Made by a program: the position numbers and the translations under genes. From an uncultured bacterium (lineage in GTDB: Bacteria > Cyanobacteriota > Vampirovibrionia > Gastranaerophilales > Gastranaerophilaceae), in assembly GCA_949284715.1 (NCBI GenBank), contig CASDWH010000004.1, positions 1-32,363 of the forward strand: a stretch of DNA of 32,363 nt, in the 5' to 3' direction. Below are positions 976 to 32,363 of the stretch, one piece after another. The notes beneath the pieces were generated by a model. It had not been told where the DNA came from, ran no database searches, and worked only from the letters and a program-made list of their open reading frames with translations. Numbering within the stretch: position 1 is the first letter of the stretch; the number at the start of each line of letters is the position of its first letter.

Positions 976-1554
976 TTAATTTGTTTTACACATTCCGCAA
1001 ACGCGCCAATATACATTACCGCCGGAGCCGTCACGTCCAACCATAAGTTTAATTTTTGAAGTAGTGAGAATATTACCGGCGACAACACCTATATCCCAGT
1101 TACCATTAAAGTAAGCATTGGTTGAAGTTACGTAAATACAAGCATTTGTATCTGTTAATTCTTTGAAAAGAGTGACTTCTTTAGTTGCATTAGAACCGCC
1201 GACATTTACGCATCCGCCCTGCTCACACCAGCCGTCTGAATAAACCCGATACCAGTTTGCCCCTGAGCGGTAAGCATCGACCACATAAATTGCCTCCTCC
1301 AGAGTTGTGCTGAGTTCTGAAATATCTTCTGTTATATCATCTATACTTTCTTGTAATTCTGCATCAGCTTCTTCTGCTGAAGATTTATTAGTATTAACTA
1401 CAGAGGCTAACGAAGATATACTACTTGAAAGAGCTGTTGCATTTGTACTTAAGCTTTGTGATACAGATGAAATTTTATCATCCAGATACTGAAAATTGTT
1501 GTTAACAACTTCTGAAGAAGCAACTGAACCATATTCTATATTTGTTAAAGCCAT
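976..1554 (-). CDS. phage fibre-tip-like protein
   Basis: 192 residues, with SD AAAGGA 7 nt before ATG. Residues ~20-90 are Ser/Asp/Glu-rich heptad-like sequence (trimeric coiled coil likely). Residues ~94-114 carry YRSGANWYRVYSDGWCEQGG, a motif seen in the globular receptor-binding heads of many short phage tail proteins. The C-terminus ends in an aromatic, Cys-bearing strand (YWRVCGMCKTN). Five cysteines (110, 115, 139, 186, 189) are crowded into the C-terminal half, which is unusual for a virion protein. It lies 17 bp upstream of the fibre gene in the same operon, so a second fibre component or tip is likely. The exact role is inferred. Confidence 0.55.
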   Translation of the reverse strand: MALTNIEYGSVASSEVVNNNFQYLDDKISSVSQSLSTNATALSSSISSLASVVNTNKSSAEEADAELQESIDDITEDISELSTTLEEAIYVVDAYRSGANWYRVYSDGWCEQGGCVNVGGSNATKEVTLFKELTDTNACIYVTSTNAYFNGNWDIGVVAGNILTTSKIKLMVGRDGSGGNVYWRVCGMCKTN

Positions 1555-1574
1555 TTTTATCCTTTCTGGCAGAA

Positions 1575-1811
1575 TTATTCTCTGCCGTTCATTATTACAC
1601 CGTAGATTTTATCAATTTTAGATTGTATGTCTGTAAATTGTGCTTTCAAATCCCTGAAAGAACTCCAGGTTACATATTTCCGTTCAATACTCTCCAATAT
1701 TTCTCTGTGCTTCTTTTCCAACTGTTCCGGAGAAACCAGTAAATGCTGTTGTATCAGGAATATTACGGCACAAACAATTATAGGAGCATACTCAATAATC
1801 TTTTCTTCCAT
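1575..1811 (-). CDS. small one-TM phage protein, holin/spanin candidate
   Basis: 78 residues with SD GAGG 5 nt before ATG. After a short acidic/neutral N-terminus (MEEKIIEYAP) there is one hydrophobic segment at residues ~9-26 (APIIVCAVIFLIQQHLLV). A charged coiled-coil-like tail with many Lys/Glu and Ile/Leu repeats follows. A short membrane anchor plus coiled coil fits class III-type holins, i-spanin-like proteins or other phage membrane proteins. A lysozyme gene is present in the same block (4437-4910), so a membrane partner for lysis is plausible. There is no family-specific motif, so lysis is only a hypothesis. Confidence 0.5.
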   Translation of the reverse strand: MEEKIIEYAPIIVCAVIFLIQQHLLVSPEQLEKKHREILESIERKYVTWSSFRDLKAQFTDIQSKIDKIYGVIMNGRE

Positions 1812-1820
1812 AAAACCTCA

Positions 1821-2507
1821 TTACTTCGACTGAGAATTATTATTGGAGCCTAACAAACCTCCAGATGTAGCACTTTGGATGAGATTAACCACGCCTTGCG
1901 CCATATTTATATAATCCATTGCATTAGCGTTTTGTTTGGAAGTAGTTGTAGCTGTTCCATAGCTATCTTTTTGAGCATTTGCATTACTTGTACTTAATGA
2001 CTGTGATTGATTATTTGAAATAACATTATATCCGTTCAAATACAAACTCATAAGGTTAGACAGCATAGATGCTGCATTTTCTTGAGAAGAACCTAATAGC
2101 TCTATCGTATAATCTTCAAGACTATCATTTATATTTTCCTGCATTTGGTTATACATGTCTGTAGCCTGGCTGGAACGTATCATATTCCGATCAGATAGCG
2201 GGTTAATAATATTGTTTTCAAAACTTTTTTGAGATTCTTCATTAAGATTTTTAGTAAAGCTGCTAAGCTTTGCCTGACTAGTAGCATCATCAATTGACGG
2301 ATTTAAATAATTTTGCAAAAGTCCTGTTACATTATCATTCACAAAATTATTGAGCGTGTCAAACGCACTTCCCGGCGCAAACTCGGTAGCGGTACCGGAA
2401 TTTGTAGTAGTTGAGGTAACATACGGATTTGTGGTTGTTGTGTTACCAAGAGTTGTGTTTGTTTTTGTTTGTGTTGTTGCTGTTGAAGATGATGATTTGC
2501 CTCCCAT
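1821..2507 (-). CDS. Ser/Thr/Asn-rich phage virion-type protein (possible ejection protein)
   Basis: 228 residues with SD AGGAGA 6 nt before ATG. The N-terminal ~60 residues are almost only Ser, Thr, Asn and Gly (MGGKSSSSTATTQTKTNTTL), probably disordered. Residues ~65-160 form an amphipathic helical region rich in Asn/Gln/Ser, and residues ~165-195 are again Ser/Ala/Asn-rich. The C-terminus has a hydrophobic helix (DYINMAQGVVNLIQSATSGG) and a Gly/Asn-rich tail. No enzymatic motif is visible. It occupies the place of T7 gene 14 (internal virion/ejection protein), right after a GNAT-like gene-13-type protein. The function is inferred from position only. Confidence 0.45.
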   Translation of the reverse strand: MGGKSSSSTATTQTKTNTTLGNTTTTNPYVTSTTTNSGTATEFAPGSAFDTLNNFVNDNVTGLLQNYLNPSIDDATSQAKLSSFTKNLNEESQKSFENNIINPLSDRNMIRSSQATDMYNQMQENINDSLEDYTIELLGSSQENAASMLSNLMSLYLNGYNVISNNQSQSLSTSNANAQKDSYGTATTTSKQNANAMDYINMAQGVVNLIQSATSGGLLGSNNNSQSK

Positions 2508-2508
2508 G

Positions 2509-2889
2509 TTATTCTCCTTTCTTTTTTACATAGAGTTCACTATCAATCTGTTTAAACCCTGCCCGTTTTAGACAGAATTTTGCTGTTTTATGTTTGGTTC
2601 GCGCCCAGATATCGCAGTCAAACCATTTTTCGGCCATATTAAGGCATTCGATATTTTTAAGATGACAATTTCTGTTTGAGAACCCGTTTACAAAAAGTCT
2701 GTCACCCGTTTTGTAAAAGTAAAGACAACCTATGAATTTATTCTCATCTGTGATAAATGAGTAGAATAATGTTGAATTTATTATTTGGTCAAAATCTTCT
2801 ATATCACCTATAAGTTTTTGATATTTTTTATAAAGATTTTTACACTCAAAGTAATTAAAATCCTTGTTAAGCGGAATTAAAACTTTCAT
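2509..2889 (-). CDS. GNAT-fold-like phage protein
   Basis: 126 residues. Its ATG lies one base after the stop of the tail-tube B-like gene, indicating translational coupling. The layout fits a small acetyltransferase fold: N-terminal helix, then strands around residues ~48-70 (FIGCLYFYKTGDRLFVNGFS), a helix with AEKWF, a strand DIWARTKHK, and the typical closing segment AKFCLKRAGFKQIDSELYVK (helix, then GF, then a last strand). The acetyl-CoA pyrophosphate loop (Q/RxxGxG/A) is not evident, so catalysis is uncertain. T7-group phages keep an acetyltransferase-like internal virion protein (gp13) at this place, after the tail tube gene, so a structural or ejection role is an alternative to an enzyme. 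The call is partly pattern recognition. Confidence 0.5.
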   Translation of the reverse strand: MKVLIPLNKDFNYFECKNLYKKYQKLIGDIEDFDQIINSTLFYSFITDENKFIGCLYFYKTGDRLFVNGFSNRNCHLKNIECLNMAEKWFDCDIWARTKHKTAKFCLKRAGFKQIDSELYVKKKGE

Positions 2890-2890
2890 T

Positions 2891-4435
2891 CTACCTCTGC
2901 TTAACCTTTATTCTTGAGCATTCAAGGGTTTTAATACAGAATTCTTCGCCCGGCTGCCTGTTAAAAAACGATATTTCCATTGTGTTAAACATAGCCGGTG
3001 GAAGTTTCACTATTGAATTTAAAACCTTTGGCGGATAATGAGCCTCATCCCAGTGTCCTGTATCCCAATATAGAACATTTTTAATACTATCAGCGGCAAT
3101 ATATCTTATCTTTGCAGGTTTTAAAGTATCATAATTTTTCTGATATTTTACATAAAACCTGTTATCATACTCTAAATCCAGAGTAACCCGCGGAGGATAG
3201 TAGAAGATTTTGACCGTATTATCGGAGCCAAGGTTAACAGGAGAACAATAATAGTATGATTGTATAAATTCTCCGTTAAAATCAGCACCGCTGTATTCTT
3301 CATAAATATCTTCACCTGCCGAATAAAAGACTTCATTAATCATTGCGAAACAATTAATTTTCTGGGATTTTCTTTTAACCCAGGCTTCTCTTAAGCAGTC
3401 ATAAATCATTATTGTAGAATACATATCATCGTTACCCGGCAGCAAAAACCATATTTCATTTCTGTCCATAGTTACAACCGACGCCATTCTGCACTGTGAA
3501 ATCTTTGCAAGCGGTATTGATACAAGTTCCTCTTGAATTTCCAACGCAATATTTTTTCCGATAATTTTATTTCCTGCCATTTCCTGATTAAACGTATAAA
3601 TTGATTTTTTATTATGGTCATAAAAATAAAGTTTTACGCCGTGAAATACAAGAGATTTATCACTTGCACACCCTCCGGGTGATTCTTCTGTCATTGAAAA
3701 ACCATAATCAGGTGCAACGCTTACAAGTACCGAACTATCCGAGTGAAATACAGCAAGCGACCCAAGATAAGGATAGATTGCCGTAATAGGTTTAACAAAT
3801 TCAATATATCCGGCAGAAGTAATAACTTCCGCATCAGCAGTTGAAAAATCGTAAATATTTTCCTGTACAGAATACCAGAGTACTTTTTCGTTAAATACCC
3901 AGAGCCTGCCATCAAAATTTACAAGTCCCATGCCGGCTATAGAACGATTATCACGGTCTTTAAGCTCCATAGATATAACTTCATCCAATTCACCATCATC
4001 ATTTGTTTTGCCAAGCTCCACAGAAAGCATTTCCTTGGAATTTGAAAATACAAACAAATCAGACCATCCCTGCGCAAAGTCACACCCGCAGGATTTTCCT
4101 GTTACTGTTAAACCTGATTTTTTCAGTACGAGAATTTGTGCCGAAACATTAAATAAATATAACTTGCCTTCAGTTGAATTTTCAGTATGCACAAAAAAAT
4201 TATGAGTACCCTTTTGTACACTGTCAAAAATATTTATTACAATTTCACCCTCGGGAATAAGCCCGCAGACAGAGATATTGCCTTTTACTGTCCGGATACC
4301 GACACCTGAGTTTGAATCAGTACTAAACAGTTCAACATTCTGCATATCCGTTGCCGTAATCATTTTCGATGAAAACACGGATTCCTGCCGTTTTATTCCG
4401 CTAAAGGTATTACATATAAGAGATGTATAGTTCAT
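2891..4435 (-). CDS. phage tail tubular protein B / tail stabilisation-like protein
   Basis: 514 residues from ATG 4435. I chose this start over an upstream in-frame start because it has SD AGGCGG 6 nt away and sits 1 base after the lysozyme stop. The sequence is beta-rich throughout with recurring segments such as FDGRLWVFNEKVLWYS, LGSLAVFHSDSSVLVS, and HGVKLYFYDHNKKSIYTF. These look like successive blades of a beta-propeller, as in T7 gp12 and P22 gp10 tail proteins. Position downstream of a tail-tube A-like gene and upstream of a GNAT-like gene fits T7 gene 12. No signal peptide or enzymatic site is seen. It is shorter than T7 gp12 (~794 residues) and close to P22 gp10 (~470). Confidence 0.6.
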   Translation of the reverse strand: MNYTSLICNTFSGIKRQESVFSSKMITATDMQNVELFSTDSNSGVGIRTVKGNISVCGLIPEGEIVINIFDSVQKGTHNFFVHTENSTEGKLYLFNVSAQILVLKKSGLTVTGKSCGCDFAQGWSDLFVFSNSKEMLSVELGKTNDDGELDEVISMELKDRDNRSIAGMGLVNFDGRLWVFNEKVLWYSVQENIYDFSTADAEVITSAGYIEFVKPITAIYPYLGSLAVFHSDSSVLVSVAPDYGFSMTEESPGGCASDKSLVFHGVKLYFYDHNKKSIYTFNQEMAGNKIIGKNIALEIQEELVSIPLAKISQCRMASVVTMDRNEIWFLLPGNDDMYSTIMIYDCLREAWVKRKSQKINCFAMINEVFYSAGEDIYEEYSGADFNGEFIQSYYYCSPVNLGSDNTVKIFYYPPRVTLDLEYDNRFYVKYQKNYDTLKPAKIRYIAADSIKNVLYWDTGHWDEAHYPPKVLNSIVKLPPAMFNTMEISFFNRQPGEEFCIKTLECSRIKVKQR

Positions 4436-4436
4436 A

Positions 4437-4910
4437 TCAGACCGCCTCATAATTTTGTTTAATATAATTCTCAAGCCGTGCAAGCCTGTTAAGCCAGCCT
4501 TTTAGAAAAACTTTCTGGGAAGGATTAACCTTTGCAAACTCGATATATTTATCTCTGCGCAGTTTTAAATACTTATCCTTATTACCCTGCGACAAAGTAA
4601 GAAAACTTCCGGCTCTTGATATACCCATATTTACTGCTGTGTCAAAATGAATAAGCCCGAGCGGTTCATCATTCAATCTGTCCGCTCCCGAGGGAAGATA
4701 ATATTTTTTATAATAGATTTCCTCAACCTCATCTGATGTTATGTTCTTTATTGATTGAAGGGAAATATTTTTTGATTTCCGGTACATATCATAAACAGAT
4801 TTTGTAATTCCGAAATTTGTTTCGCCGCCAGAATCAGCAGGGTGGTTTACATACCCGCCTTCCATTAAAAGAACAAAATCAAGAGCTTTTTTAAATTTTT
4901 TATTTTCCAT
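4437..4910 (-). CDS. glycoside hydrolase family 108 lysozyme (endolysin or virion-associated)
   Basis: 157 residues with SD AAGGAG 7 nt before ATG. It cleaves the MurNAc-GlcNAc bonds of peptidoglycan. The diagnostic GH108 signature is complete: catalytic Glu17 in MEGGYVNHPAD (16-26) followed by SGGETNFGIT (27-36). Further family segments are FDTAVNMG (89-96) and FLKGWLNRL (135-143). There is no signal peptide or membrane segment, so cytoplasmic release would need a holin, or the protein is carried in the virion. Its position between the two tail-tube-like genes, rather than in a lysis cassette, supports the second possibility. The enzyme call is firm; the stage of action is inference. Confidence 0.9.
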   Translation of the reverse strand: MENKKFKKALDFVLLMEGGYVNHPADSGGETNFGITKSVYDMYRKSKNISLQSIKNITSDEVEEIYYKKYYLPSGADRLNDEPLGLIHFDTAVNMGISRAGSFLTLSQGNKDKYLKLRRDKYIEFAKVNPSQKVFLKGWLNRLARLENYIKQNYEAV

Positions 4911-4925
4911 ATTTCGCTCCTTTTG

Positions 4926-5594
4926 TTAAAAAACTACTTTCCGTTCCGGAGTTATACCGGTTGTATATTTAAGCAAAAGTTTGTATGCTGTTTCAAATTG
5001 TTTTCTATAACTTGAATAATTTTCATCATGCTCCGATGCTATTGCATAAAGCATCGTTTTGGTGATTAATGCATTTTTGAATAACTCTTCAAGTTTTTCA
5101 GGGACATCAATTGTATCTGTATCATTTTTTAGAGAATATATAGATTTCCCTGTTTCATCCGTTCCAACGGCAAGTGTGTAATATTCCGTTTTAATCTCAT
5201 AAAATTTATCCGGTACAGGGTAAAAATAAATATTCTGGTTATCAATTCTAAAATATTTTGGAGTACCTTTCTCATCGGAAATTTTTGGAATTCTGTCCAC
5301 ATATTCAAGATATTTATCATTAATTGATACGTAGTATCCTTTTTTACCATCAATATTTCTTTCTGCAAGATTCCCATCCGGAAGCGGATATCCCTGTTCT
5401 CCGCCCATTATAAGCAGGTATTCTGTTCTGCGCCTGAACGGAAAATCAGTAGAACACCATAAATCCGAAAGGGCCTTATTAATAGAGGAAATAAGTACAT
5501 TTTCAAACTCTGCTTTTGTATCAACTTCATCATCAAACATAGACCACGCTTGTGATGCGACACTATTATATATATCTAAAAGAGTAAGCGGCAT
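4926..5594 (-). CDS. phage tail tubular protein A / head-tail adaptor-like protein
   Basis: 222 residues. The start overlaps the preceding stop by one base (TAATG), with SD AAAGGAGG inside the preceding gene. The N-terminal region (residues 1-60) is helical and resembles gp4/gp11-type adaptors: LLDIYNSVASQAW, then a helix with NKALSDLWCSTDFPFRRR. The middle (about 60-150) is beta-rich (YPLPDGNLAERN, KYFRIDNQNIYFYPVPDKFYEIKTEYYTLA). The C-terminal part (160-215) is helical again. This helix-beta-helix layout with the PFRRRTEYLL segment is shared by many podovirus adaptor proteins, which join portal and tail. Length is close to T7 gp11 (196). Family assignment is by pattern and place in the gene order. 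Confidence 0.55.
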   Translation of the reverse strand: MPLTLLDIYNSVASQAWSMFDDEVDTKAEFENVLISSINKALSDLWCSTDFPFRRRTEYLLIMGGEQGYPLPDGNLAERNIDGKKGYYVSINDKYLEYVDRIPKISDEKGTPKYFRIDNQNIYFYPVPDKFYEIKTEYYTLAVGTDETGKSIYSLKNDTDTIDVPEKLEELFKNALITKTMLYAIASEHDENYSSYRKQFETAYKLLLKYTTGITPERKVVF

Positions 5595-5881
5595 TATTTT
5601 GCCTCCTTTCTTTTAGTCAGTTGTTTTCCCGGCTTCTTTTTCACTGTCCCTGTTTTTTGTATTCTAATATTAGAAATGTCGTCATCGTCGCACTCTTCGA
5701 CAACAATACTGTAAATATCCTTAATCTCGGACAAATCCTGTTTAATATTTGATGATATAAAATCTTTATCCAAACCGGAAATAATTTCATAAACTTCCGG
5801 AGCCTGAGAGATAATTTCTACAGCCTTATCTTCCGGAAGGGTAAATATATGTTTTGTTAAAATATTCTTAAATTTAACCAT
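5594..5881 (-). CDS. small basic phage protein, unknown function
   Basis: 95 residues from ATG 5881, chosen because a full SD (AGGAGG) lies 7 nt upstream; the longer in-frame reading starts inside a terminator hairpin. The N-terminal half is MVKFKNILTKHIFTLPEDKA followed by amphipathic helix. A central Asp/Glu run (EECDDDD) follows, then a Lys/Arg-rich tail (KKKPGKQLTKRKEAK). The basic tail could touch DNA or the portal. It is coupled to the adaptor-like gene by a one-base stop/start overlap, so the two products are likely made in similar amounts. I do not recognise the family. Confidence 0.6.
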   Translation of the reverse strand: MVKFKNILTKHIFTLPEDKAVEIISQAPEVYEIISGLDKDFISSNIKQDLSEIKDIYSIVVEECDDDDISNIRIQKTGTVKKKPGKQLTKRKEAK

Positions 5882-5895
5882 TATAAAACCTCCTG

Positions 5896-5956
5896 AAAAA
5901 AAAGCGGAACGGAGCATAAACAAATGAAGGAAGAGAGAGTAACAAATCCGTTCCGC
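5896..5956 (-). terminator. intrinsic terminator-like hairpin after the capsid/decoration genes
   Basis: A perfect 10-bp inverted repeat, GCGGAACGGA (5904-5913) and TCCGTTCCGC (5947-5956), encloses a 33-nt loop. On the minus strand it is followed at once by eight T residues (5903-5896) and then by the SD of the next gene. Stem plus U8 is a classical intrinsic terminator apart from the long loop. It sits inside the phage late operon, so some read-through would be expected. Confidence 0.65.
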
Positions 5957-5969
5957 AAAATAACAAACT

Positions 5970-6362
5970 TTATTCTACAGGAGCAACACCGGCGCGTTTT
6001 GCTACTGCATAAATATTACCTGTAAACCCTGTTGAAAAATCAATATTGATAGAACCATCACGATTTTCAAATCTTGATAAATCCTGAATTTGACAAACTA
6101 TTGTTGATGAAGCGGCAACAGGAATATCCAAATCTCCTAACATTGAGTTAGGATAAGTATCACCGGCAGCAAATGTTACTGTTGATTCAGAAGCTGCTGT
6201 ATTTTCTATTACAATTGCTAATGAATTATTTTTATTTTTTGCTGCTTCTTTAATTTGAATACCATTAGCAACCGTAACTGCTTTATTTGTAACCGTTTCA
6301 GTTGCAATAGACTGGGAAGATTCTACTTCCGGTAAAATTACATTAATTATATCTCTAGCCAT
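5970..6362 (-). CDS. phage head decoration-like protein
   Basis: 130 residues with SD AAGGAG before ATG, directly downstream of the capsid gene. The sequence is Ala/Thr/Val/Ile-rich with almost no aromatic or Cys residues and reads as a small beta-sandwich: SLAIVIENTAASESTVTFAAG, YPNSMLGDLDIPVAASSTI, IDFSTGFTGNIYAVAKRAG. Such small beta proteins encoded beside the major capsid gene usually decorate the head. The strong hairpin just downstream would favour high expression of capsid plus this protein over the genes that follow. Decoration is inferred from composition and location. Confidence 0.6.
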   Translation of the reverse strand: MARDIINVILPEVESSQSIATETVTNKAVTVANGIQIKEAAKNKNNSLAIVIENTAASESTVTFAAGDTYPNSMLGDLDIPVAASSTIVCQIQDLSRFENRDGSINIDFSTGFTGNIYAVAKRAGVAPVE

Positions 6363-6393
6363 ATCTTTAATTCTCCTTTTTTATAAATACTAA

Positions 6394-7290
6394 CTATGCG
6401 GCAGCAGACAGTGACAACGGCGCCTTAACTTTTACGGTGCCTAAGAAATCTGCACGCGGCGCACCAACACCGTACAGTCCATAACCTTTGTATGTAGAGT
6501 TGAAATTCTTTTCCGGTATATAGAACTGGGTTGACATATCAGCAGAAATGCCGCCAGCAAGAGTTTTTCCGGCAATACCAAACATCGGATAAAATACACC
6601 TTCTTCAGGCTGGGCAATATTATTAGAAGTATAAATATCCCAGCCGCAGAGTTTTCCGATGTGGCCTTTTTCCATTTTTTTGTGGCCTGATTCAACATAT
6701 TTTAAATCTTCTAACTGTCCCAGATAAAATTGAAATTCAGGCGGAACAATACAAATCATAGAACCATCAACCCAGTTTGTATGACCTTTGCCATCACCTC
6801 TCTGGAATTTCGCCTGCATTATTGCAAGAATTTCCTTTGCATATTGAGATGTAAGAGTAATAGCAGAGCCATTATCATCCAAATAATGTCCTGCTCTTGT
6901 ATACAGATTACCGAACGCCGTATCTACCGCTGCTGCAAATTGCTTAATCGCATCTTCACAGTAGCTGCGTGCTAAATTCCACTGAGCGTCTTTTGTTTCA
7001 GTTTCTTCGATTTGCTTTTCTTCTACTGCTGATAATTCAAAGTGAAAAGCTTTACCTTTATCGAGTTTTACTTTTGTAATAGAAAGTCCTGCTTCCTCAG
7101 CATCTTTTAAATCTCCGCCGTCATAATCGAACATTGCCACAGAAGCCGGCATAATAATATCTATTTCATCACCTCTGCGAACATTTGCTCTGGTTTCAGT
7201 ATGTGCAAGCCGGCCTATTACTAATTCATTGTAAAAATACTTTTCTACTGATTTGTTAAAAATAGATTGAATAATTTGTTGAACTGACAT
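6394..7290 (-). CDS. phage major capsid protein
   Basis: 298 residues with SD AAAGGA before ATG. Features fit an HK97-fold coat protein. The N-terminal helix is MSVQQIIQSIFNKSVEKYFY. A segment RANVRRGDEIDIIMPASVAMFDYDGGD resembles the E-loop/P-domain entry of podovirus coats. A spine-like helix contains EDAIKQFAAAVDTAFGNLYTRAG. WVDGSMICIVPPEFQFYLGQ is typical of the A-domain region ('D..r.vvv.P..y..L'). GWDIYTSNNIAQPEEGVFYPMFGIAGKTLAGG resembles the tail-end strands. It follows the scaffold gene by 29 bp and precedes the decoration gene, the canonical order. Slightly shorter than T7 gp10A (345). Confidence 0.8.
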   Translation of the reverse strand: MSVQQIIQSIFNKSVEKYFYNELVIGRLAHTETRANVRRGDEIDIIMPASVAMFDYDGGDLKDAEEAGLSITKVKLDKGKAFHFELSAVEEKQIEETETKDAQWNLARSYCEDAIKQFAAAVDTAFGNLYTRAGHYLDDNGSAITLTSQYAKEILAIMQAKFQRGDGKGHTNWVDGSMICIVPPEFQFYLGQLEDLKYVESGHKKMEKGHIGKLCGWDIYTSNNIAQPEEGVFYPMFGIAGKTLAGGISADMSTQFYIPEKNFNSTYKGYGLYGVGAPRADFLGTVKVKAPLSLSAAA

Positions 7291-7319
7291 TTTTCATTCC
7301 TTTCTTTTTAAAATACTAA

Positions 7320-7964
7320 CTACATTAATTCATCAAGTGCTTTATCAAGTTCTTCCGGAGTCATATCTGTAAGTTTTTTCCCTTTGGTTTTAAACTTGGA
7401 CTGATTATTGGAATAAGCAAGCATATCCGTAGCTTTATCCGATTCTGATTTCAAAGCATCCGCTCTTTGTATTTGTGCCATCCTTGAATTGAGGTAATTT
7501 TCAACAAGCCTTACCATTGAATCAACGTCAAGCTTGTTGCCGTAACCATCATAAGCGGCTTTAAGCAGTTCTCTAAATTCGCGGTTTTGAAGATAAGCTT
7601 CTGTGTTATATTTACTGCCCATTCCATCTACCAGAAGTTTAAATTCCTCCAGTTGTTTTCTACCGGCTTTACAACGGGCCAGATGGGCTTCGTATTCCTG
7701 CGCTATTTTACGAAGTTCTCCAGTTTCTCTGGCTAGCTGCCCGAACTTCTTTTGAAGTTCAAGATAAGCTTTTGATAAATCTTCTACTGATTTAAATTTT
7801 CCAAGGATAGAATTTTTATCCAATGGATGCGGAACTTTTTCATCCGCCGGCGCATCATCAGAGCCGGATTCTACAGAGATTGAATTTTCTTCACCATATA
7901 AAGGTTCTCCCTCTGAAAAAAATTCCGGGTTGTCTGTAATTGTTCTGTTGTTTTTTCTAAACAT
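7320..7964 (-). CDS. phage capsid scaffold protein
   Basis: 214 residues with SD AAAGGAG before ATG. The N-terminal 50 residues are acidic and Ser/Pro-rich (probably disordered). Next comes ILGKFKSVEDLSKAYLELQKKFG at about residues 53-75, a segment found in many podovirus/siphovirus scaffold proteins. A long predicted coiled coil follows (75-115), then helices. The C-terminus is basic then acidic (KTKGKKLTDMTPEELDKALDELM), consistent with a capsid-binding helix-loop-helix end. It lies between portal and capsid genes, the standard scaffold position. It should act only in procapsid assembly and then leave. Confidence 0.75.
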   Translation of the reverse strand: MFRKNNRTITDNPEFFSEGEPLYGEENSISVESGSDDAPADEKVPHPLDKNSILGKFKSVEDLSKAYLELQKKFGQLARETGELRKIAQEYEAHLARCKAGRKQLEEFKLLVDGMGSKYNTEAYLQNREFRELLKAAYDGYGNKLDVDSMVRLVENYLNSRMAQIQRADALKSESDKATDMLAYSNNQSKFKTKGKKLTDMTPEELDKALDELM

Positions 7965-8012
7965 AAAAATCTCCTTTCTAAAATTTCTTTAATTCCCGTT
8001 TAGCTATGTTCA

Positions 8013-9971
8013 TTACTTTTTATCAGCCGTACCATCACCTCCTGACTTTTCAGGAGCTTTTACGGAATACGTTTCTTTAGCCGTTTTTTGAACAGCATTT
8101 TTAGCCGGTTTAATAACCTGATTTGCTGCAGGATTTTGGGCTGCCTGACCGGCAAGTTTCTGAATTTGTTCATTAATCTGTTTCATAACCTGCGGGTTAT
8201 TCATAAGATTCTGCATAACTGCGGCCGCCTGATTTTGCTGAAGCTGCTCTTTTGCCAGAAAACGTTCCGGATTTTCTACTCCTTTTTGTTCAAAATACCA
8301 GGTGAATATCTCCCTTATATCCAGCGGGATTGATTGAGCAAAACGTTCTATTACGCCTACAACCATATCTGCGCGCTGCGATTTTTCAACAATCCCAGAA
8401 CGATCAGAGTAAGTATATCTGTAATCGCCCTGACGAATTTGGTCATCAATAACTACTACATCACTTTGATTATTGTTATTCAGATAAACTCTTTCCGTAC
8501 CAGTCTTAAAATCAGCGCAAAGTTTTGCAACATTTTTAACATCCGGAATTATCAAGTACTGGTTAATAATATCCAGCATCATAGATAACCTGGTTAACTG
8601 CCCCTGCGTTTTTGTTGTAATTTCTGTTGCAGTCTTAGTCGTTTCTTCATTGTTTCCTACCATATTAGGATAAATCCCGCTTACTTCAGACATCAGGTCA
8701 TCTATAAAAGAAATATCATTCAGGAACACATTTACGTTAAAATCCAACTGTTTAAACAGATTATTTGGAGAAATATTATCACCATATTCAATAATTTTGC
8801 CAGGATAGAGTTCTATTTCTTCCTTATCAAAAAAGCCTTCCGGCGCAAGAATCGGCGGATTTTCCGCAAGCGACTGCATATCACAGGTTCTGTTTAAGAG
8901 GTTTTCCTGTACAAGCGCCAGATTCAAAATAGAATACAAAGGACTTATTCCTCGTCTTGTTTCCGGATCAACAACAAACGCACCGTAAGTAAACGGATTT
9001 ATTATACGCTCATTTTTAGAAAATTTAACAAGATATTTTCTTGCCACTACAACCGCATGCCAGTTTTTAAGTAGTGTACCGTCAGACATTCTAAAATCTC
9101 CCCAATGTTCAAGCACTTCTACAGTTGACCCGTTAACCACTTCTCTGTATAACCGGCGTCTGGACTGATTAGAAAGATCAGTTGTTGAGGGAGGATTTAT
9201 TAATTGTTTAATTTCTTCAGCTTCTTCTTTTGTGAGAGTATAAAGATTGTTATTTATTATTTCGTGGGGCGTTCTAAAACTCTTATAAATTTTAGGACAA
9301 TCATCCCAGTTTGAAAGCTGGGTTACATCAAATACTAAATCAGCAGGATTAACAGGATAAATGTATGGATTATCGTATACTTTTTTTGTATCAGTCCAGA
9401 AATTTTGGCCTTTTGAAACGGCATCTAATATTTGCGGAAGCTTGCTGACATCATTCTTAAAAACATTTTTGAAAAAGTTGATTGGACGTCTGTATTCCTC
9501 ATAGTGCTTTTTCCAGGCTGTAAATGATATCATTTCACCATATAAAAGTGCATTATCAAGAATCGTATCACATGTTTTTTGATAATCCATTTTTTCAAAA
9601 ATATCAACTAGGATAGCTTTTTGGCGATTTGCAAAATTATCACTTTCATGGTTTTCACCGGATACATCAAACATTGAATTTACGTTAGAGTAAATATTTT
9701 TCCAGATAAACGCTTTTAAAGTTTGATAAAACATAAACAATTTACACATTTTAACCTTCGATTTCCATTTTTTATGCTTATCGCCCTCCGTTGAATAGTT
9801 ATTCTTAAAGAAAACTTCGCTAATCAAAGCATCTGACTTGGCAAGATTAGAAGAACGCGCATCATTGTACGTATCAAAAGTGTTTACAATTTTGTTAACA
9901 ATAGCGGTTCTTTCAGCATCAGTTAATTTAACTTTCCCGTTTTCTGTTTGAATAATGTAATTTTGTGTCAT
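8013..9971 (-). CDS. phage portal protein (podovirus-like)
   Basis: 652 residues with SD AAAGGA before ATG. This would form the dodecameric DNA-packaging vertex. The first ~120 residues are helical with Lys-rich stretches. The central part carries wing/stem features typical of portals: YVNPADLVFDVTQ-like sequence (IYPVNPADLVFD), LEHWGDFRM strands, then the conserved portal core PFTYGAFVVDPETRRGISPLYSILNLALVQENLLNRTCDMQSLAENPPILAP. A tunnel-loop/stem region with NNEETTKTATEITTKTQGQ follows. The C-terminal ~100 residues are Gln/Ala/Asn-rich helix (barrel-like) ending in a disordered Lys/Gly tail. Length is between T7 gp8 (536) and P22 gp1 (725). The gene is followed by scaffold and capsid. Confidence 0.8.
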   Translation of the reverse strand: MTQNYIIQTENGKVKLTDAERTAIVNKIVNTFDTYNDARSSNLAKSDALISEVFFKNNYSTEGDKHKKWKSKVKMCKLFMFYQTLKAFIWKNIYSNVNSMFDVSGENHESDNFANRQKAILVDIFEKMDYQKTCDTILDNALLYGEMISFTAWKKHYEEYRRPINFFKNVFKNDVSKLPQILDAVSKGQNFWTDTKKVYDNPYIYPVNPADLVFDVTQLSNWDDCPKIYKSFRTPHEIINNNLYTLTKEEAEEIKQLINPPSTTDLSNQSRRRLYREVVNGSTVEVLEHWGDFRMSDGTLLKNWHAVVVARKYLVKFSKNERIINPFTYGAFVVDPETRRGISPLYSILNLALVQENLLNRTCDMQSLAENPPILAPEGFFDKEEIELYPGKIIEYGDNISPNNLFKQLDFNVNVFLNDISFIDDLMSEVSGIYPNMVGNNEETTKTATEITTKTQGQLTRLSMMLDIINQYLIIPDVKNVAKLCADFKTGTERVYLNNNNQSDVVVIDDQIRQGDYRYTYSDRSGIVEKSQRADMVVGVIERFAQSIPLDIREIFTWYFEQKGVENPERFLAKEQLQQNQAAAVMQNLMNNPQVMKQINEQIQKLAGQAAQNPAANQVIKPAKNAVQKTAKETYSVKAPEKSGGDGTADKK

Positions 9972-10004
9972 ATTTATTTCCTTTCTTAATTAGTTTTAGA
10001 GAAA

Positions 10005-10025
10005 GAACCCGTAAAAACAGGGTTC
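10005..10025 (-). repeat. short inverted repeat (hairpin) before the portal gene
   Basis: GAACCC (10005-10010) and GGGTTC (10020-10025) form a perfect 6-bp stem with a 9-nt loop. It lies in the 79-bp gap between the small terminase-like gene and the portal. On the minus strand it is followed by TTTCTCT, too poor in T for a confident terminator. It could be a weak attenuator or an RNA processing site. Confidence 0.4.
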
Positions 10026-10050
10026 ATAGAGAGAAGGGGATTCAATTAGT

Positions 10051-10359
10051 CTAAATCTTTTTAAAATCCACTCCCTGAATAAAAGTGATTTTGGGTTCAC
10101 TTTCTTCTTCCGGAAGGTCATCATCAAGCCCCAGAGCAATACGATGTCCTTTTTGGATTTTCACGACAGAAGCTACCAGAAAATCAAGAGTTGAAATTGC
10201 AGATTTAGGAACTTCAGTAAATTCATATTCAACATTTGGAATTCCTTTGGAAAAACCTTCCAGAAGATACTCTATGTTATCCAGCAGCTTGTCGTAAATT
10301 TTTATATGGCGTTCATTAACACCTGATTTTATTTTTTCCTTTTTAGATTTTCTTGGCAT
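10051..10359 (-). CDS. small phage protein, terminase small subunit-like
   Basis: 102 residues from ATG 10359, chosen because SD AAGGA lies 7 nt upstream; longer in-frame starts lack an SD. The N-terminus is strongly basic (MPRKSKKEKIKSG), suggesting DNA contact. A helical middle follows (HIKIYDKLLDNIEYLLEGF). Then comes ISTLDFLVASVVKIQKGHRIALGLDDD, which resembles the C-terminal oligomerisation segment of several phage small terminases. The end is acidic then ITFIQGVDFKKI. It is the first gene of the visible late block, where a small terminase belongs. However, no large terminase follows. The call rests on a short resemblance and position; a generic DNA-binding phage protein is the alternative. 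Confidence 0.4.
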   Translation of the reverse strand: MPRKSKKEKIKSGVNERHIKIYDKLLDNIEYLLEGFSKGIPNVEYEFTEVPKSAISTLDFLVASVVKIQKGHRIALGLDDDLPEEESEPKITFIQGVDFKKI

Positions 10360-10700
10360 AAGTTTATCCTTTTTTGTTTCTTTATAATTATTCATATGTA
10401 CCGGATTATTGCGGTATGCGGTTAAAAAAAAACGGAGTAAATGTATTGCTAACACATAACTAGCACACCCATAACGCCCTGTGTTTTTTATTATTTATTC
10501 ATATTTACTAAAAATTTGCACAACAATATATCCTCATTTTAAAAGGTCACACTATCCCTGTATTCCAATAGGGGCTTTATTTAATCCAACAGCGATTAAA
10601 CAAATTTAAGTACTGTTTTATATTACACTTTTTTAACGAAAAAACCCAAGAAATATTACAAAAACTTTACATCTTATCTAGGACTCTTTCAGGACAATGC

Positions 10701-22218: not shown

Positions 22219-23445
22219 ATGCGTATACAAGCTATTACAAATCACAGAAATTTATCTTTTATTTCTAAAAGAGATGAAACAAATGAGCAAAAACTTTCTA
22301 ATACTCAAAGTACGGGTATTCCTAAAGGTTTAAAGGCTGTACATTTCGGCCATAACATAATTCCGGGGGCAGCAGAGGCATTAATCAAAGATTACAAATG
22401 GTTTATAAATAATGATAAATTACCGGCAATAAATGCCTTACTAAAAATTAAGACAGATAAAACTGCCTTTGATTCATTGTTAAGAAGCATACTAAAAGAT
22501 GATGAACTGAGTTACGAATTAATCGACAGTATCATTAAACAGCCGCGAAATATGAAGTACTTTTTAAAAGATTTTGAAGAAAAATTACCTGTCGGCAGCG
22601 ACATGTTTTTAACCTTTATGCCGCACAATATTTATACAAAAGCGTATACAAAGTACATTGACAAACGTGTAGAAAACGCTAAATCCATCTCCGAACTTCT
22701 CGAAATAAGACCGGATTGGAAAGAAGATGTGTTATTAAGCAAACACTCTGATATATACAATAACAATGATTTTGAACTCGGTCATGTACCCGAAGCAATT
22801 AACCACGGCAAATTTGAAGAAATCGTTCATTATCTGCGGAAATATATGGATTACGGAATTAACAAAAGCGAAAAAGACATCCCAGCTATAACAATTAATG
22901 GAACAACTTTCAATTTCAGATACTTCACAGACGGAAAGACTGATAAGAATGTATTCGGGATATCAGACAACAATGGTGAAAGATTTATTATAAAAATAGC
23001 GCCAACAGAACGTAAAAGTCTTAACGATGCCTGCGCTCTCGGTACACTATGCAAAATTGACACTTATCTGACCAGAAATTATTGCAGGAATTCCGCACCG
23101 CTCAGATATTATAATCACAATTTAAATGCCTCCATCTATGATTTTATAGAACATCAAAAAGTTGATAAAAAAATCACACTTGAAGAAATACGGGAAAATA
23201 TTCCTGATTTCATTGATTTAAATCTAAAATACAATGATACTGCGGGGAAAAACAATTTTTTTATACTTGACCATACACAGCACAGGGTAAAAGGTATGAA
23301 CGATTACCATTATGGTGTAGAAAAATCTGAGTGGATTACGGTAGATAATGACCATGTTATATTTGAATCAAGATTTCAGCCGATTATAGATAAATACCAC
23401 CACGTACTGCCAAATACCATGGATATCTTTTGTAAATTTTTGTAA
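22219..23445 (+). CDS. lineage-type protein of unknown function with kinase-like C-terminal half
   Basis: 408 residues from ATG 22219, chosen for SD GGAGA 5-6 nt upstream. The short N-terminus MRIQAITNHRNLSF is of a kind I associate with many Gastranaerophilales proteins. Residues ~50-220 are helical with no recognised motif. The C-terminal half has the order of a protein-kinase-like fold. Strands with a Gly-bearing turn (DGKTDKNVFGISDNNGERFIIKIAP, 238-262) place Lys259 in a VAIK-like position. A hinge-like ASIYDFIEH (304-312) follows. Then comes NDTAGKNNFFILD (339-351) with Asp340 and Asn345 spaced as in HxDxxxxN, and ITVDND (373-378), which could stand for the metal-binding Asp. The His before the catalytic Asp is absent. 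Kinase assignment is inference and may be wrong. Confidence 0.6.
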   Translation: MRIQAITNHRNLSFISKRDETNEQKLSNTQSTGIPKGLKAVHFGHNIIPGAAEALIKDYKWFINNDKLPAINALLKIKTDKTAFDSLLRSILKDDELSYELIDSIIKQPRNMKYFLKDFEEKLPVGSDMFLTFMPHNIYTKAYTKYIDKRVENAKSISELLEIRPDWKEDVLLSKHSDIYNNNDFELGHVPEAINHGKFEEIVHYLRKYMDYGINKSEKDIPAITINGTTFNFRYFTDGKTDKNVFGISDNNGERFIIKIAPTERKSLNDACALGTLCKIDTYLTRNYCRNSAPLRYYNHNLNASIYDFIEHQKVDKKITLEEIRENIPDFIDLNLKYNDTAGKNNFFILDHTQHRVKGMNDYHYGVEKSEWITVDNDHVIFESRFQPIIDKYHHVLPNTMDIFCKFL

Positions 23446-23655: not shown

Positions 23656-23690
23656 TAAGTGGTAAAAATTAAAATAACTCTCGGAATCTA

Positions 23691-23717
23691 AGCCCCTGGA
23701 CTGGGGGCTTTTTTTAT
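23691..23717 (+). terminator. intrinsic terminator after the 43-aa ORF
   Basis: AGCCCC and GGGGCT form a 6-bp GC-rich stem around a 7-nt loop (TGGACTG), followed by a run of seven T residues. It isolates the rplU-rpmA transcript from upstream genes. Confidence 0.8.
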
Positions 23718-28642: not shown

Positions 28643-31600
28643 TTAAAATCTGTATTCAAGTTCACCCTGGAATCCAATGCCGGCTCTGCCGACATTTCGT
28701 ATAATAACTTGTCCAAATAAAGACAACCTGTCTGTAAGTTCTTTGCTTACCCCAAACCCGTATTGCAGATAGCCCCTATCCATCCAAATTTCAGGAAGAT
28801 TAACACCGCCTGCATTGCCGGTAACACCGCCTACACAGTTATATACATAAGCAACCGTTGCAAACAAATTCCATGTTTCCTGCTGCCATATAAAATTAAC
28901 ACCGGGTGCAACATTTAATCCGTTGAGAGTACCTGTTGCCATACCGATTTGACCATAATTTGACTGCCAGCTTTGACCGCCGAAGAAGTTGTAAGAAACA
29001 GTGGCAGAAGGCTGAATAATTAAATGATCTTTAATCCGCCAATTATAAGCAGCTTTTATCGCTGTACCTGCATAATAATTTATATCCTGATCGGTATTCC
29101 CGCGGACACTCATATCCACATTATACAAACTTGCATAACCTAAAACAGATGCTATCCAGTTTTTGTTAAAGAAGGTACCCATGGCACCAATTTGACCGCC
29201 ATTTTCATACGCGCTTACACCTTCAAAAGACTGGTGAGCGCCGATATAACCCATATAAACTGTTGGTATCCAGCTCCATCCTTTTCCAATATCAAAAGTT
29301 CCCATATCAACGCCGACAAGAGAACCATAGGCACTGTTTTCAACATCCAAATCTTCGGACATTCTGAGTGTTTCAAAATTACCATAAGTTTTAACCCATA
29401 TACCGGAATCACGTCTTGTATATTCATATCCGGGCAAAGTCTTTGTATCTTCGATTGCTGTACGATTAGCAATCAATGAATTAGTAAGAGTTTGAGGAGT
29501 AAGAGTCACTCTGTCAAATAAAATATCATTAACAACTAACTGATTCATTAACTGTGATACAGAAACAACCTGCCCCCTAAAGGACTGCTTGTTATACCCT
29601 GTAACATTCAGTAAGTATGAACCGTCATTTGCATCTGATGCGAACAATCTGTATGTATTAACGGGTGTAACTAACTCATTTGCTGTCGTTGTAAATTTGA
29701 CATTTTCACCTATTTCATCCGCATCAAATATTTTTCCTAAATCAACTGTTTGTGAAGGAACTGTTGCATTAGGAAGGCTTTGAACCAAATTAAAATCGGA
29801 GATATTAATTATTGCTTCTTTAGATGTATCTGTTGATGCTATTGATGTAAAGTCAAATGAATCAGCTTCATATGTTCCATTAATGGCATCTTCATATATA
29901 TCTATTGTAAAATCGGCTCTGCCGTTTACGTTATCAACAATAAATCCGCCGAGAGTATTAACTTCTGCTGTATTATTTACTGATGAAATCAGGCCGGCTG
30001 ATTGGAGATTTATATTCTCATTGCCCCATGCTGAACCTAAATTCACTTTTGAACGATTATCAATTTTTATATCTCCGGATTTAAGGATATCATTTGTATC
30101 TTCATAGATAGTCAACACTGTATTTGCAAGAGATAGTGTTCCGCCGTTAACATCCAGATTATTTGATTTTATATTACCATCTGTTCCCAGACCTATTTCC
30201 GAATCAGAGAGAATCAGGTTTCCGGAATCAGAAAGATTAATTTTTCCATTCCATTTATCTGAAGATTCTGCTGTGCCTATACCGCCCAGATTCACTTTAC
30301 CTGATTCCAGATTAAGTCTGGTACCTGAAGCTATATTGACATTTGTAGAGGCTGCTATATTAGTATTGCCGGCTGTTGTTAGAGATGAATCATTTGTAAG
30401 GTTAAAATTAGAATTTCCGCTTGTTATTAATTCTGCGGTATGTTCCTGTCCGTTTGCAATCGTTAATGTTCCCTTATCGCCAAGCTGCACCGAAGAATTA
30501 CCGGTAATCGAACTCAGTTCATCATTCAGAGTTAATGCGCCTCCGTTGTTTATTGACAGAGTACCGCCTGTTTGAATATATGAACTTCCGTTTTCTGTTT
30601 CATGTATAAAATTATCAGTTAAAACAAAACTGCCGGAGTTCATAACTACATCGCCCGCCCACTCATCTGCTGATGATGTATTGGCATCAAAAGTAACATT
30701 ACCGCCTGAGATATTTAATGTTGATGATTCATCTATTATTGTAGTTACACCCTTATTTATTACAAGGTTTTCACCAAGGGTCGTATCTGAGCCTAAGATT
30801 TTCAAAGTTCCGGACTGGGCTTCAAAAGAACCCGCATCAGAAACATTATCAAGTATTAAAGTTCCGTTATCGAGAGCTATTTCCCCTTCCCAGATATCAG
30901 AGCCGTCAACTGTCACAATCGCATCATTATTTATATTTAAATCTCCGTAAATTCCAAGTTCCGTTTCTGATATAATTTCTCCGCCGACAAGCGTTAAACC
31001 GCTGCCGTTATTAATATCTATAGTATTTGCTGTTGTATCGGTTTGAATTGAGAGAGTATTATTTTTACCATTATCTAAAACTATTGATGATGAATTTCCA
31101 AGGTTTATATCAGCGTTAGCTATCGTACTGCTGCCTGAGGCTTCCAATCTTGAATTATCAAGGGAAACATCACCGCCTGTTATAGAAGAGCCGCTGTTAA
31201 GAGTCAAACTACTTCCGTTTATATTAAGATTACCGCCGGTTTGATTATATGTAGAATTTTGCGAAGTAATTTTATCAACTGAAAGATTTAAATTACCGCC
31301 GGCAATACTTAAATTTCCATTCCAGACATCATTTTCACCTATATTAACAACCGTGTCCTGACCGGTGACAGACAAATTCCCTGTAAAATCGAGGATTGAA
31401 TCATCAGCAATTGTTCCTCCCGTCAAATTAAGTGATGAACCTGAGTTTACACCAATCATCGAACCTGAGCCGGCAGTAATACTACCCTCGTTTTGTGAAT
31501 TATTATTAAACACCAGATTGCCGCCGGTAATATTAACTATGCTATCTCCGGTTATTGAACTGCCGTTATTTACTGTTAAATCGGCGTTTAAATCAAGAGT

Positions 31601-32363
31601 CCCGCCGGTTTGTACAAATCCGGAGTCTGTAGATGTTTCTTTATCGGCAGACAGAGCTAAATTTCCGCCCGATAATGAAACATCACCATTCCAGTTATCG
31701 CCTGAATCTATTTGAACATTACCGCCTGCAATAGTCATACCTGAACCGGCATTAATATTTATATTTGCCCCGGAAGTTATATCACCATTTGAAACAGTTA
31801 ATTCAGAATTGCTGCTTATAGTAATATTCCCGCCGGATATAAGGTCATTCCGGTTATTCAAATCAAAATCACCGGCAATGGTTATATCACCTGCGGTTTG
31901 GGTTAATGAACCTATTTTGTCAGTAATTTCGGACACTACCAGATTACCGCCTGATACACTCACATCACCGAGCCAGATATCGCCGTCATCAAGTGAAAGA
32001 TTACCGCCTGTAACTGAAATATCACCGTTAGTATTAATATTAACATCAGTATTTGCAGTAACTGTCCCCTGCGAAATAGTTAGTGTTCCATTCTGAATTT
32101 CAAGTTCGCCGCCGGATATCAAATCTGAAGTATTATTCAAATCAAAATTCCCTGCAACCACTGTTTTACCGCCGGTTTGGTTCAAAATTCCGTTCTTATT
32201 TGCACCATCTGCGATTAAATTACCGTCAGTAACTTCTATAAGTCCGTTCCAGATATCTCCGCCGTTTACTGTTACACTCCCGCCGTTTACTGTTATTTGA
32301 CCGTCTTCTGTTATATTTATATTATTCCCTGCTTCTATTCGACCCGATGATACACTTAAATCA
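28643..32363 (-). CDS. autotransporter-like repetitive surface protein, partial (N-terminus beyond window end)
   Basis: The frame is open from the window end to the stop at 28643, giving about 1,239 residues with the start and signal peptide missing. The passenger (up to ~29,950) is Gly/Asn/Ser/Thr/Asp-rich and contains no clear Cys. It is made of degenerate beta-strand repeats such as QTGGTLDLNADLTV and NNGSSITGG. A D-x-W-x-G module recurs seven times (near plus positions 32,250, 31,975, 31,690, 31,320, 30,890, 30,660, 30,255). The C-terminal ~270 residues (from RRDSGIWVKTYGNF) form an autotransporter beta-barrel with alternating strands and terminal Phe (ELEYRF). This predicts export across an outer membrane and surface display of a beta-helix. 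Function (adhesion or other) is unknown. Confidence 0.85.
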   Translation of the reverse strand, partial: DLSVSSGRIEAGNNINITEDGQITVNGGSVTVNGGDIWNGLIEVTDGNLIADGANKNGILNQTGGKTVVAGNFDLNNTSDLISGGELEIQNGTLTISQGTVTANTDVNINTNGDISVTGGNLSLDDGDIWLGDVSVSGGNLVVSEITDKIGSLTQTAGDITIAGDFDLNNRNDLISGGNITISSNSELTVSNGDITSGANININAGSGMTIAGGNVQIDSGDNWNGDVSLSGGNLALSADKETSTDSGFVQTGGTLDLNADLTVNNGSSITGDSIVNITGGNLVFNNNSQNEGSITAGSGSMIGVNSGSSLNLTGGTIADDSILDFTGNLSVTGQDTVVNIGENDVWNGNLSIAGGNLNLSVDKITSQNSTYNQTGGNLNINGSSLTLNSGSSITGGDVSLDNSRLEASGSSTIANADINLGNSSSIVLDNGKNNTLSIQTDTTANTIDINNGSGLTLVGGEIISETELGIYGDLNINNDAIVTVDGSDIWEGEIALDNGTLILDNVSDAGSFEAQSGTLKILGSDTTLGENLVINKGVTTIIDESSTLNISGGNVTFDANTSSADEWAGDVVMNSGSFVLTDNFIHETENGSSYIQTGGTLSINNGGALTLNDELSSITGNSSVQLGDKGTLTIANGQEHTAELITSGNSNFNLTNDSSLTTAGNTNIAASTNVNIASGTRLNLESGKVNLGGIGTAESSDKWNGKINLSDSGNLILSDSEIGLGTDGNIKSNNLDVNGGTLSLANTVLTIYEDTNDILKSGDIKIDNRSKVNLGSAWGNENINLQSAGLISSVNNTAEVNTLGGFIVDNVNGRADFTIDIYEDAINGTYEADSFDFTSIASTDTSKEAIINISDFNLVQSLPNATVPSQTVDLGKIFDADEIGENVKFTTTANELVTPVNTYRLFASDANDGSYLLNVTGYNKQSFRGQVVSVSQLMNQLVVNDILFDRVTLTPQTLTNSLIANRTAIEDTKTLPGYEYTRRDSGIWVKTYGNFETLRMSEDLDVENSAYGSLVGVDMGTFDIGKGWSWIPTVYMGYIGAHQSFEGVSAYENGGQIGAMGTFFNKNWIASVLGYASLYNVDMSVRGNTDQDINYYAGTAIKAAYNWRIKDHLIIQPSATVSYNFFGGQSWQSNYGQIGMATGTLNGLNVAPGVNFIWQQETWNLFATVAYVYNCVGGVTGNAGGVNLPEIWMDRGYLQYGFGVSKELTDRLSLFGQVIIRNVGRAGIGFQGELEYRF

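Follow-up and report, generated by a model that had tools for sequence, protein, structure and literature searches.

A new protein-kinase-like family, sampled so far only in the class of the Gastranaerophilales

The described kinases that come closest to the protein family reported here include the LPS core heptose(II) kinase RfaY (WaaY; NF007684), Bud32 (TIGR03724) and PRPK together with the RIO kinases, the APH family (PF01636), and the Hanks-type Ser/Thr kinases (PF00069). In active APH and lipid kinases the catalytic Asp usually stands without a preceding HR, and a YND motif in place of HRD, as well as Asp or Gly two positions after the metal-binding Asp, is tolerated in small-molecule kinases. 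Comparable surveys keep turning up unannotated kinase families (PMC9758233, PMC3281104). In Legionella, novel (pseudo)kinase families were described that are divergent, had previously escaped annotation, mostly keep the catalytic residues and in some cases carry extra helical domains (PMC9758233).

The window analyzed in this work, i.e. the whole stretch of 32,363 nucleotides, is one of the contigs of a genome of 2.0 Mb, and the nearest relatives of this genome that carry a name are Candidatus Gastranaerophilales MAGs. The gene of interest (22219-23445, plus strand) encodes 408 amino acids plus a stop codon when read from an ATG, and an alternative GTG start 12 bases upstream would give 412 amino acids. 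The ATG is favored by the upstream sequence gtGGAGaacattATG, judged by eye, and homologues begin at the equivalent ATG. A terminator-like stem-loop with a T run is located downstream of the gene (23690-23710, plus strand). The gene comes after trkA and trkH, which are on the same strand, and ahead of rplU (names read off the sequences without a search). An operon link to trkA-trkH was considered as a functional clue and rejected, since this neighborhood is common only to the same genus. Outside the genus, the gene has other neighbors and often stands alone; the genomic context is therefore uninformative on function, and no partner pointing to a substrate was found among the compared neighborhoods of the family genes. 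Elsewhere in the window, a run of phage-like structural genes (976-10455, minus strand) was recognized by eye as a probable prophage, including a portal-like protein of 652 aa (8013-9971), a capsid-like protein of 298 aa (6394-7290) and a lysozyme-like ORF (4437-4910). A repeat-rich protein of 1180 aa with an autotransporter-like C-terminus, also noted by eye, occupies positions 28643-32185 on the minus strand.

Searched as a single sequence, the protein matched no Pfam or NCBIfam family and gave nothing usable against PDB sequences; the family profile A1 gave only chance-like matches there (best, Transcription Factor E, E 0.0057). Relatives were identified by whole-genome searches in 31 of 146 near-relative genomes and by profile search in 60 of 382 genomes of the class. 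The resulting alignment A2 contains 68 sequences (the window protein and its homologues), all from the same bacterial class, with a mean column identity of 24%. Identity to the window protein is 36-76% in a close subfamily and 17-25% in distant branches. In the family tree, sequences from one genus mostly group together, although a few, among them L011 and L013, do not; such a pattern suggests that the family is old and has often been lost. With a best PADLOC value of 0.0041 and at most 3 of the 68 members matched by any one model, none of the anti-phage-defence families fits. In one genome the homologue is present as two ORFs of 259 and 165 aa (L038 and L044, G253:C12), reflecting either a degraded gene or an assembly error.

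The initial annotation had proposed, from the order of sequence motifs, that the C-terminal half of the protein adopts a protein-kinase-like fold, and structure prediction combined with fold searches bears this out for residues 210-408 (22846-23442, plus strand). AlphaFold2 models built with the family alignment predict a two-lobed kinase-like domain with confidence and reached pLDDT 89 and pTM 0.85 at full length, and pLDDT 89 and pTM 0.86 for residues 195-408 alone. In Foldseek searches of the PDB with the isolated domain, the best match was RIOK2 (E 1.8e-4, probability 1.00), 15 matches had E <= 0.001, and kinases accounted for 50 of 50 among the matches listed. The VIA search with the same domain placed APH(3')-IIIa on top (Z 10.5, rmsd 4.0, 151 residues aligned), followed by RIO1 (9.7), ULK4, PRPK (9.0) and the UbiB-like MSMEG_1954 (8.9); here, too, the matches listed were kinases throughout. 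Searches with the full-length model gave the same kinase picture at lower scores, and the BFVD search returned no more than weak kinase matches. Only 32 residues follow Asp376; in the full-length model they comprise a strand (380-382) and a short C-terminal helix, with no long helices, and the C-lobe is therefore minimal. An activation segment, an APE motif and large C-lobe helices are absent from the sequence and its predicted secondary structure.

Remote sequence comparisons point in the same direction. In HHalign, the domain profile scored 30.2 (probability 20%) against a Pkinase profile built from genomes of the class, above the highest values from 48 unrelated families (18.0) and from shuffled controls (22), and it aligned Lys259 with the VAIK Lys, Asp340 with HRD, Asn346 with the kinase Asn and Asp376 with DFG. 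The score against HipA (PF07804) was 18.1, and the same method also misses HipA when true kinases are compared. The NCBIfam model for RfaY matched across the domain in L095 (E 1.3e-7) and L094 (7.3e-7), two sequences that the A1 profile, built without them, finds at E about 1e-75. The Bud32 model matched eight members (best E 4.9e-4) and the Pkinase model five (best 4e-4), while relative to the curated Pfam Pkinase (PF00069) score of 31.7 bits the best member reached 20.3 and the window protein was unmatched. When 386 phylum genomes were searched with the A2 profile, the matches outside the class were all weak (E 4e-5 to 0.009) and nearly all fell in the hinge-to-DFG region, with G513 lying outside it. 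The subset of these matches that was read, G513 not being among them, consisted of cyanobacterial Ser/Thr kinases with HRDxKPxN and DFG motifs and one kinase-like protein of the HGD type, aligned in register. That the motifs resemble those of kinases by chance on an unrelated fold would agree with the missing family match of the window protein and the weak single-protein scores; however, the fold search, independent family models, the reverse genome search and residue conservation concur against this reading, and we regard it as extremely improbable.

The motifs are located where the initial annotation had placed them: FIIKI with Lys259, SIYDFIEH (residues 305-312), NDTAGKNN with Asp340, and VDND with Asp376. 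Of the four residues whose invariance it had proposed to check (Lys259, Asp340, Asn345 and Asp376), the three charged ones are nearly invariant in the 68-sequence alignment, and Asn345 is not. Lys259, the beta-3 (VAIK-type) lysine (22993-22995), is kept in 65 of 68 sequences (96%); Asp340, the equivalent of the catalytic base in a YND replacing HRD (23236-23238), in 66 (97%); and Asp376, the equivalent of the DFG Asp (23344-23346), in 67 (99%). Asn345 (23251-23253) is kept in 25% only; its neighbor Asn346 (23254-23256; 68/68, 100%) never varies and corresponds to the metal-binding Asn. Since the Asn stands at position 346, the catalytic loop of the subfamily is one residue longer, with the Asn at D+6 as opposed to D+5 in most distant members. 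Most of the distant branches have a catalytic loop resembling that of ordinary kinases, e.g. GIYYNDASPNNFVERDGKLIVIDIGESSF in L026 and VYYRDFNPENF in L030. The spacing from Asn to the last Asp, noted initially as longer than usual, is indeed 30 residues and is explained by an insertion specific to the subfamily (residues 350-371, 23266-23331) between the catalytic loop and the metal-binding Asp; in distant members it is much shorter. Three further elements were assigned: GKTDK (residues 239-243, 22933-22947), equivalent to the glycine loop and with the family pattern GxSxK, in which Lys243 is kept in 67 of 68 sequences; ASIYDFIEH (residues 304-312, 23128-23154), comprising beta-5 and the hinge, with Tyr307 in 66 of 68; and Asp281 (23059-23061; 58/68) in the helix following beta-3 (residues 274-286). 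Position 281 holds Asp or Glu in 60 of 68 sequences and Ser in seven, with Ser found in a sub-branch, and Asp281 may pair with Lys259, standing in for the alpha-C Glu. All of these features are on the plus strand. Set against the mean column identity of 24%, the conservation of the motif residues is more than chance.

The initial annotation had left the choice between a diverged kinase family and a pseudokinase, and the evidence favors the former, because the catalytic Lys, Asp and Asn and the metal-binding Asp are kept together. A pseudokinase that retains the fold but transfers no phosphate, serving as a scaffold or a nucleotide sensor, would account for the degenerate motifs of the window protein (YND for HRD and VDND for DFG-x, with neither the HRD His and Arg nor the DFG Gly) and for the replaced alpha-C Glu. 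It would also fit the losses seen in single members (D376N in L016, D340E in L021, D340Y in L080) and in the clade of L041, L102 and L104, where Thr occupies the position of Lys259 while Asp340, Asn346 and Asp376 are kept, and which may be a pseudokinase branch. However, these losses are confined to side branches, all four catalytic residues are present in the window protein, and their joint conservation at 96-100% is difficult to account for if no ATP-dependent chemistry takes place; the usual absence of HR before the Asp in active APH and lipid kinases also speaks against a pseudokinase, which we consider improbable for the family as a whole. The degenerate active site and the helical domain would likewise be compatible with a kinase-fold enzyme that moves a group other than the gamma-phosphate, such as AMP (as in SelO) or glutamate (as in SidJ), and AMPylating and glutamylating families of this fold have been listed (PMC9758233). 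The similarities found include none specific to SelO or SidJ, and the Lys and metal-binding residues occur in the usual order, leaving such a transfer very unlikely. Our preferred interpretation, held with good though not full confidence, is thus a divergent kinase that belongs to the protein-kinase-like superfamily, is catalytically competent and, in the genomes sampled, is confined to the class of the Gastranaerophilales; to judge from the conserved set of ATP-handling residues, it is probably an active phosphotransferase.

The region preceding the kinase-like domain consists of two parts. Residues 1-47 (MRIQAI...VHFG; 22219-22359, plus strand) are disordered and poorly conserved, with pLDDT of about 50 or less. 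Residues 48-209 (22360-22845, plus strand) form an all-helical domain that is conserved across the family, with Pro165 and Gly188 invariant and Tyr139, Trp167 and Pro191 nearly so. Because Pro165 and Gly188 are invariant too, the helical and kinase-like domains are, judged by conservation, one unit, and the full-length pTM of 0.85 fits a predicted fixed arrangement of both. An N-terminal signature M-x-I-x-x-I ... F-K/R/G-G/A was seen in the disordered segment (22219-22359) and in many family members, and also in otherwise unrelated proteins of the genome (e.g. L265:16668-18836 and L271:17502-18953). The pattern MxIxxI...FKG was considered as a conserved N-terminal tag, being suggestive by eye, and was set aside after a weak pattern test (5 of 330 genes). 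Some distant members have a hydrophobic N-terminal segment, noted by eye, that is probably membrane-spanning.

For the proposed kinase, a mechanism can be outlined in which Lys259 would position the ATP phosphates, Asn346 and Asp376 would hold Mg2+, Asp340 would activate the acceptor, and the adenine would be held by the hinge around Tyr307. Because almost no C-lobe follows Asp376, the helical N-terminal domain might take over substrate binding or stabilize the core. With the large C-lobe, the surface on which peptides usually dock is missing as well; the substrate would then be either small or bound by the helical domain. A more specific version, in which the C-lobe is cut to little beyond the catalytic and metal-binding loops, the helical domain replaces the C-lobe helices in binding the substrate and the target, in these gut relatives of the Cyanobacteria, is an envelope glycan or host-associated, is doubtful as a whole. 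With regard to the substrate, a small molecule, glycan or envelope component is our leading candidate, at somewhat less than even chances; a protein ranks below it, at roughly one chance in three or slightly less, and what is left falls to a regulatory role or to a different reaction, AMP transfer for example. One sub-branch consists of proteins of about 900 aa with a sugar-nucleotidyltransferase-like N-terminal domain (P0002: PF00483, E 1.9e-8), which precedes the helical and kinase-like domains. Such fused homologues are found at L106:2587-5286 (minus strand) and L105:2153-4963 (plus strand), and as L098, L101 and L107; another protein, P0006 (L097), has the same N-terminus without most of the sugar-nucleotidyltransferase-like region. 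Together with the RfaY link, this fusion would weakly favor a glycan or small-molecule substrate.

Further kinase-like proteins were observed in these bacteria. The same genome encodes a second unannotated one, L149 (G000:C32, about 23.1 kb), of 479 aa, with a similar N-terminus (MKINSI...FFNA) and a Pkinase match at E 2.2e-5 that is under the curated cut-off. L243-L249, from the same taxonomic family, are kinase-like proteins of 480-598 aa with loops of HRD, HGD or SD type and an FK, FQ or FG motif at their N-termini; L244 and L247 form an HHalign bridge from the new family to Pkinase.

In total, these results add to the protein-kinase-like superfamily a family confined, as far as sampled, to one lineage, the class of the Gastranaerophilales; it is a new unannotated family within a well-known superfamily and not a new kind of system. 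It is notable for its minimal architecture and its presence in gut bacteria, as Gastranaerophilales are common gut bacteria, mostly known from metagenomes, with many unnamed genes. The kinase superfamily gains a family that was missed by standard models and has an unusually short C-lobe, and an unnamed protein now represents an enzyme family that can be tested by mutating defined residues. The kinase assignment came from a reading of the raw sequence and was upheld with a one-residue correction.

Comparison with the known systems defines the position of the family. RfaY shares the Lys, Asp, Asn and Asp in the same order, and distant members match positions 19-177 of the 232 of its model; direct identity with RfaY was rejected, as the best member, at 31.5 bits, lies far under the cut-off of 248, the window protein is unmatched, and the model matched 0 of 117 genomes of the order at E <= 0.001. 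The new family also differs in adding the helical N-terminal domain and has no tie to LPS core genes. RIO kinases are the best Foldseek matches, PRPK is matched by VIA and the Bud32 model gives weak matches, whereas the best member reaches only 19.6 bits against the Bud32 equivalog cut-off of 125, no KEOPS or ribosome context was seen, and the C-lobe of the new family is shorter still; no result obtained here relates its helical domain to theirs. APH(3')-IIIa, the top structural match by VIA Z, shares a D-x4-N and an I-D motif and likewise lacks the HR of HRD, but the new family has no long drug-binding APH C-lobe, the HHalign score for APH (24.3) is below that for Pkinase, the Pfam APH model left the window protein unmatched, and APH is absent among the families listed for members. 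The Legionella (pseudo)kinase families likewise belong to host-associated bacteria, of a different lineage, and no sign of a secretion or effector role was seen here. While the new family differs from the Hanks-type kinases in having no HRD, DFG Gly, APE, activation segment or large C-lobe, these kinases gave the best HHalign score among the Pfam families tried, and in cyanobacterial genomes the family profile picks them up aligned in register.
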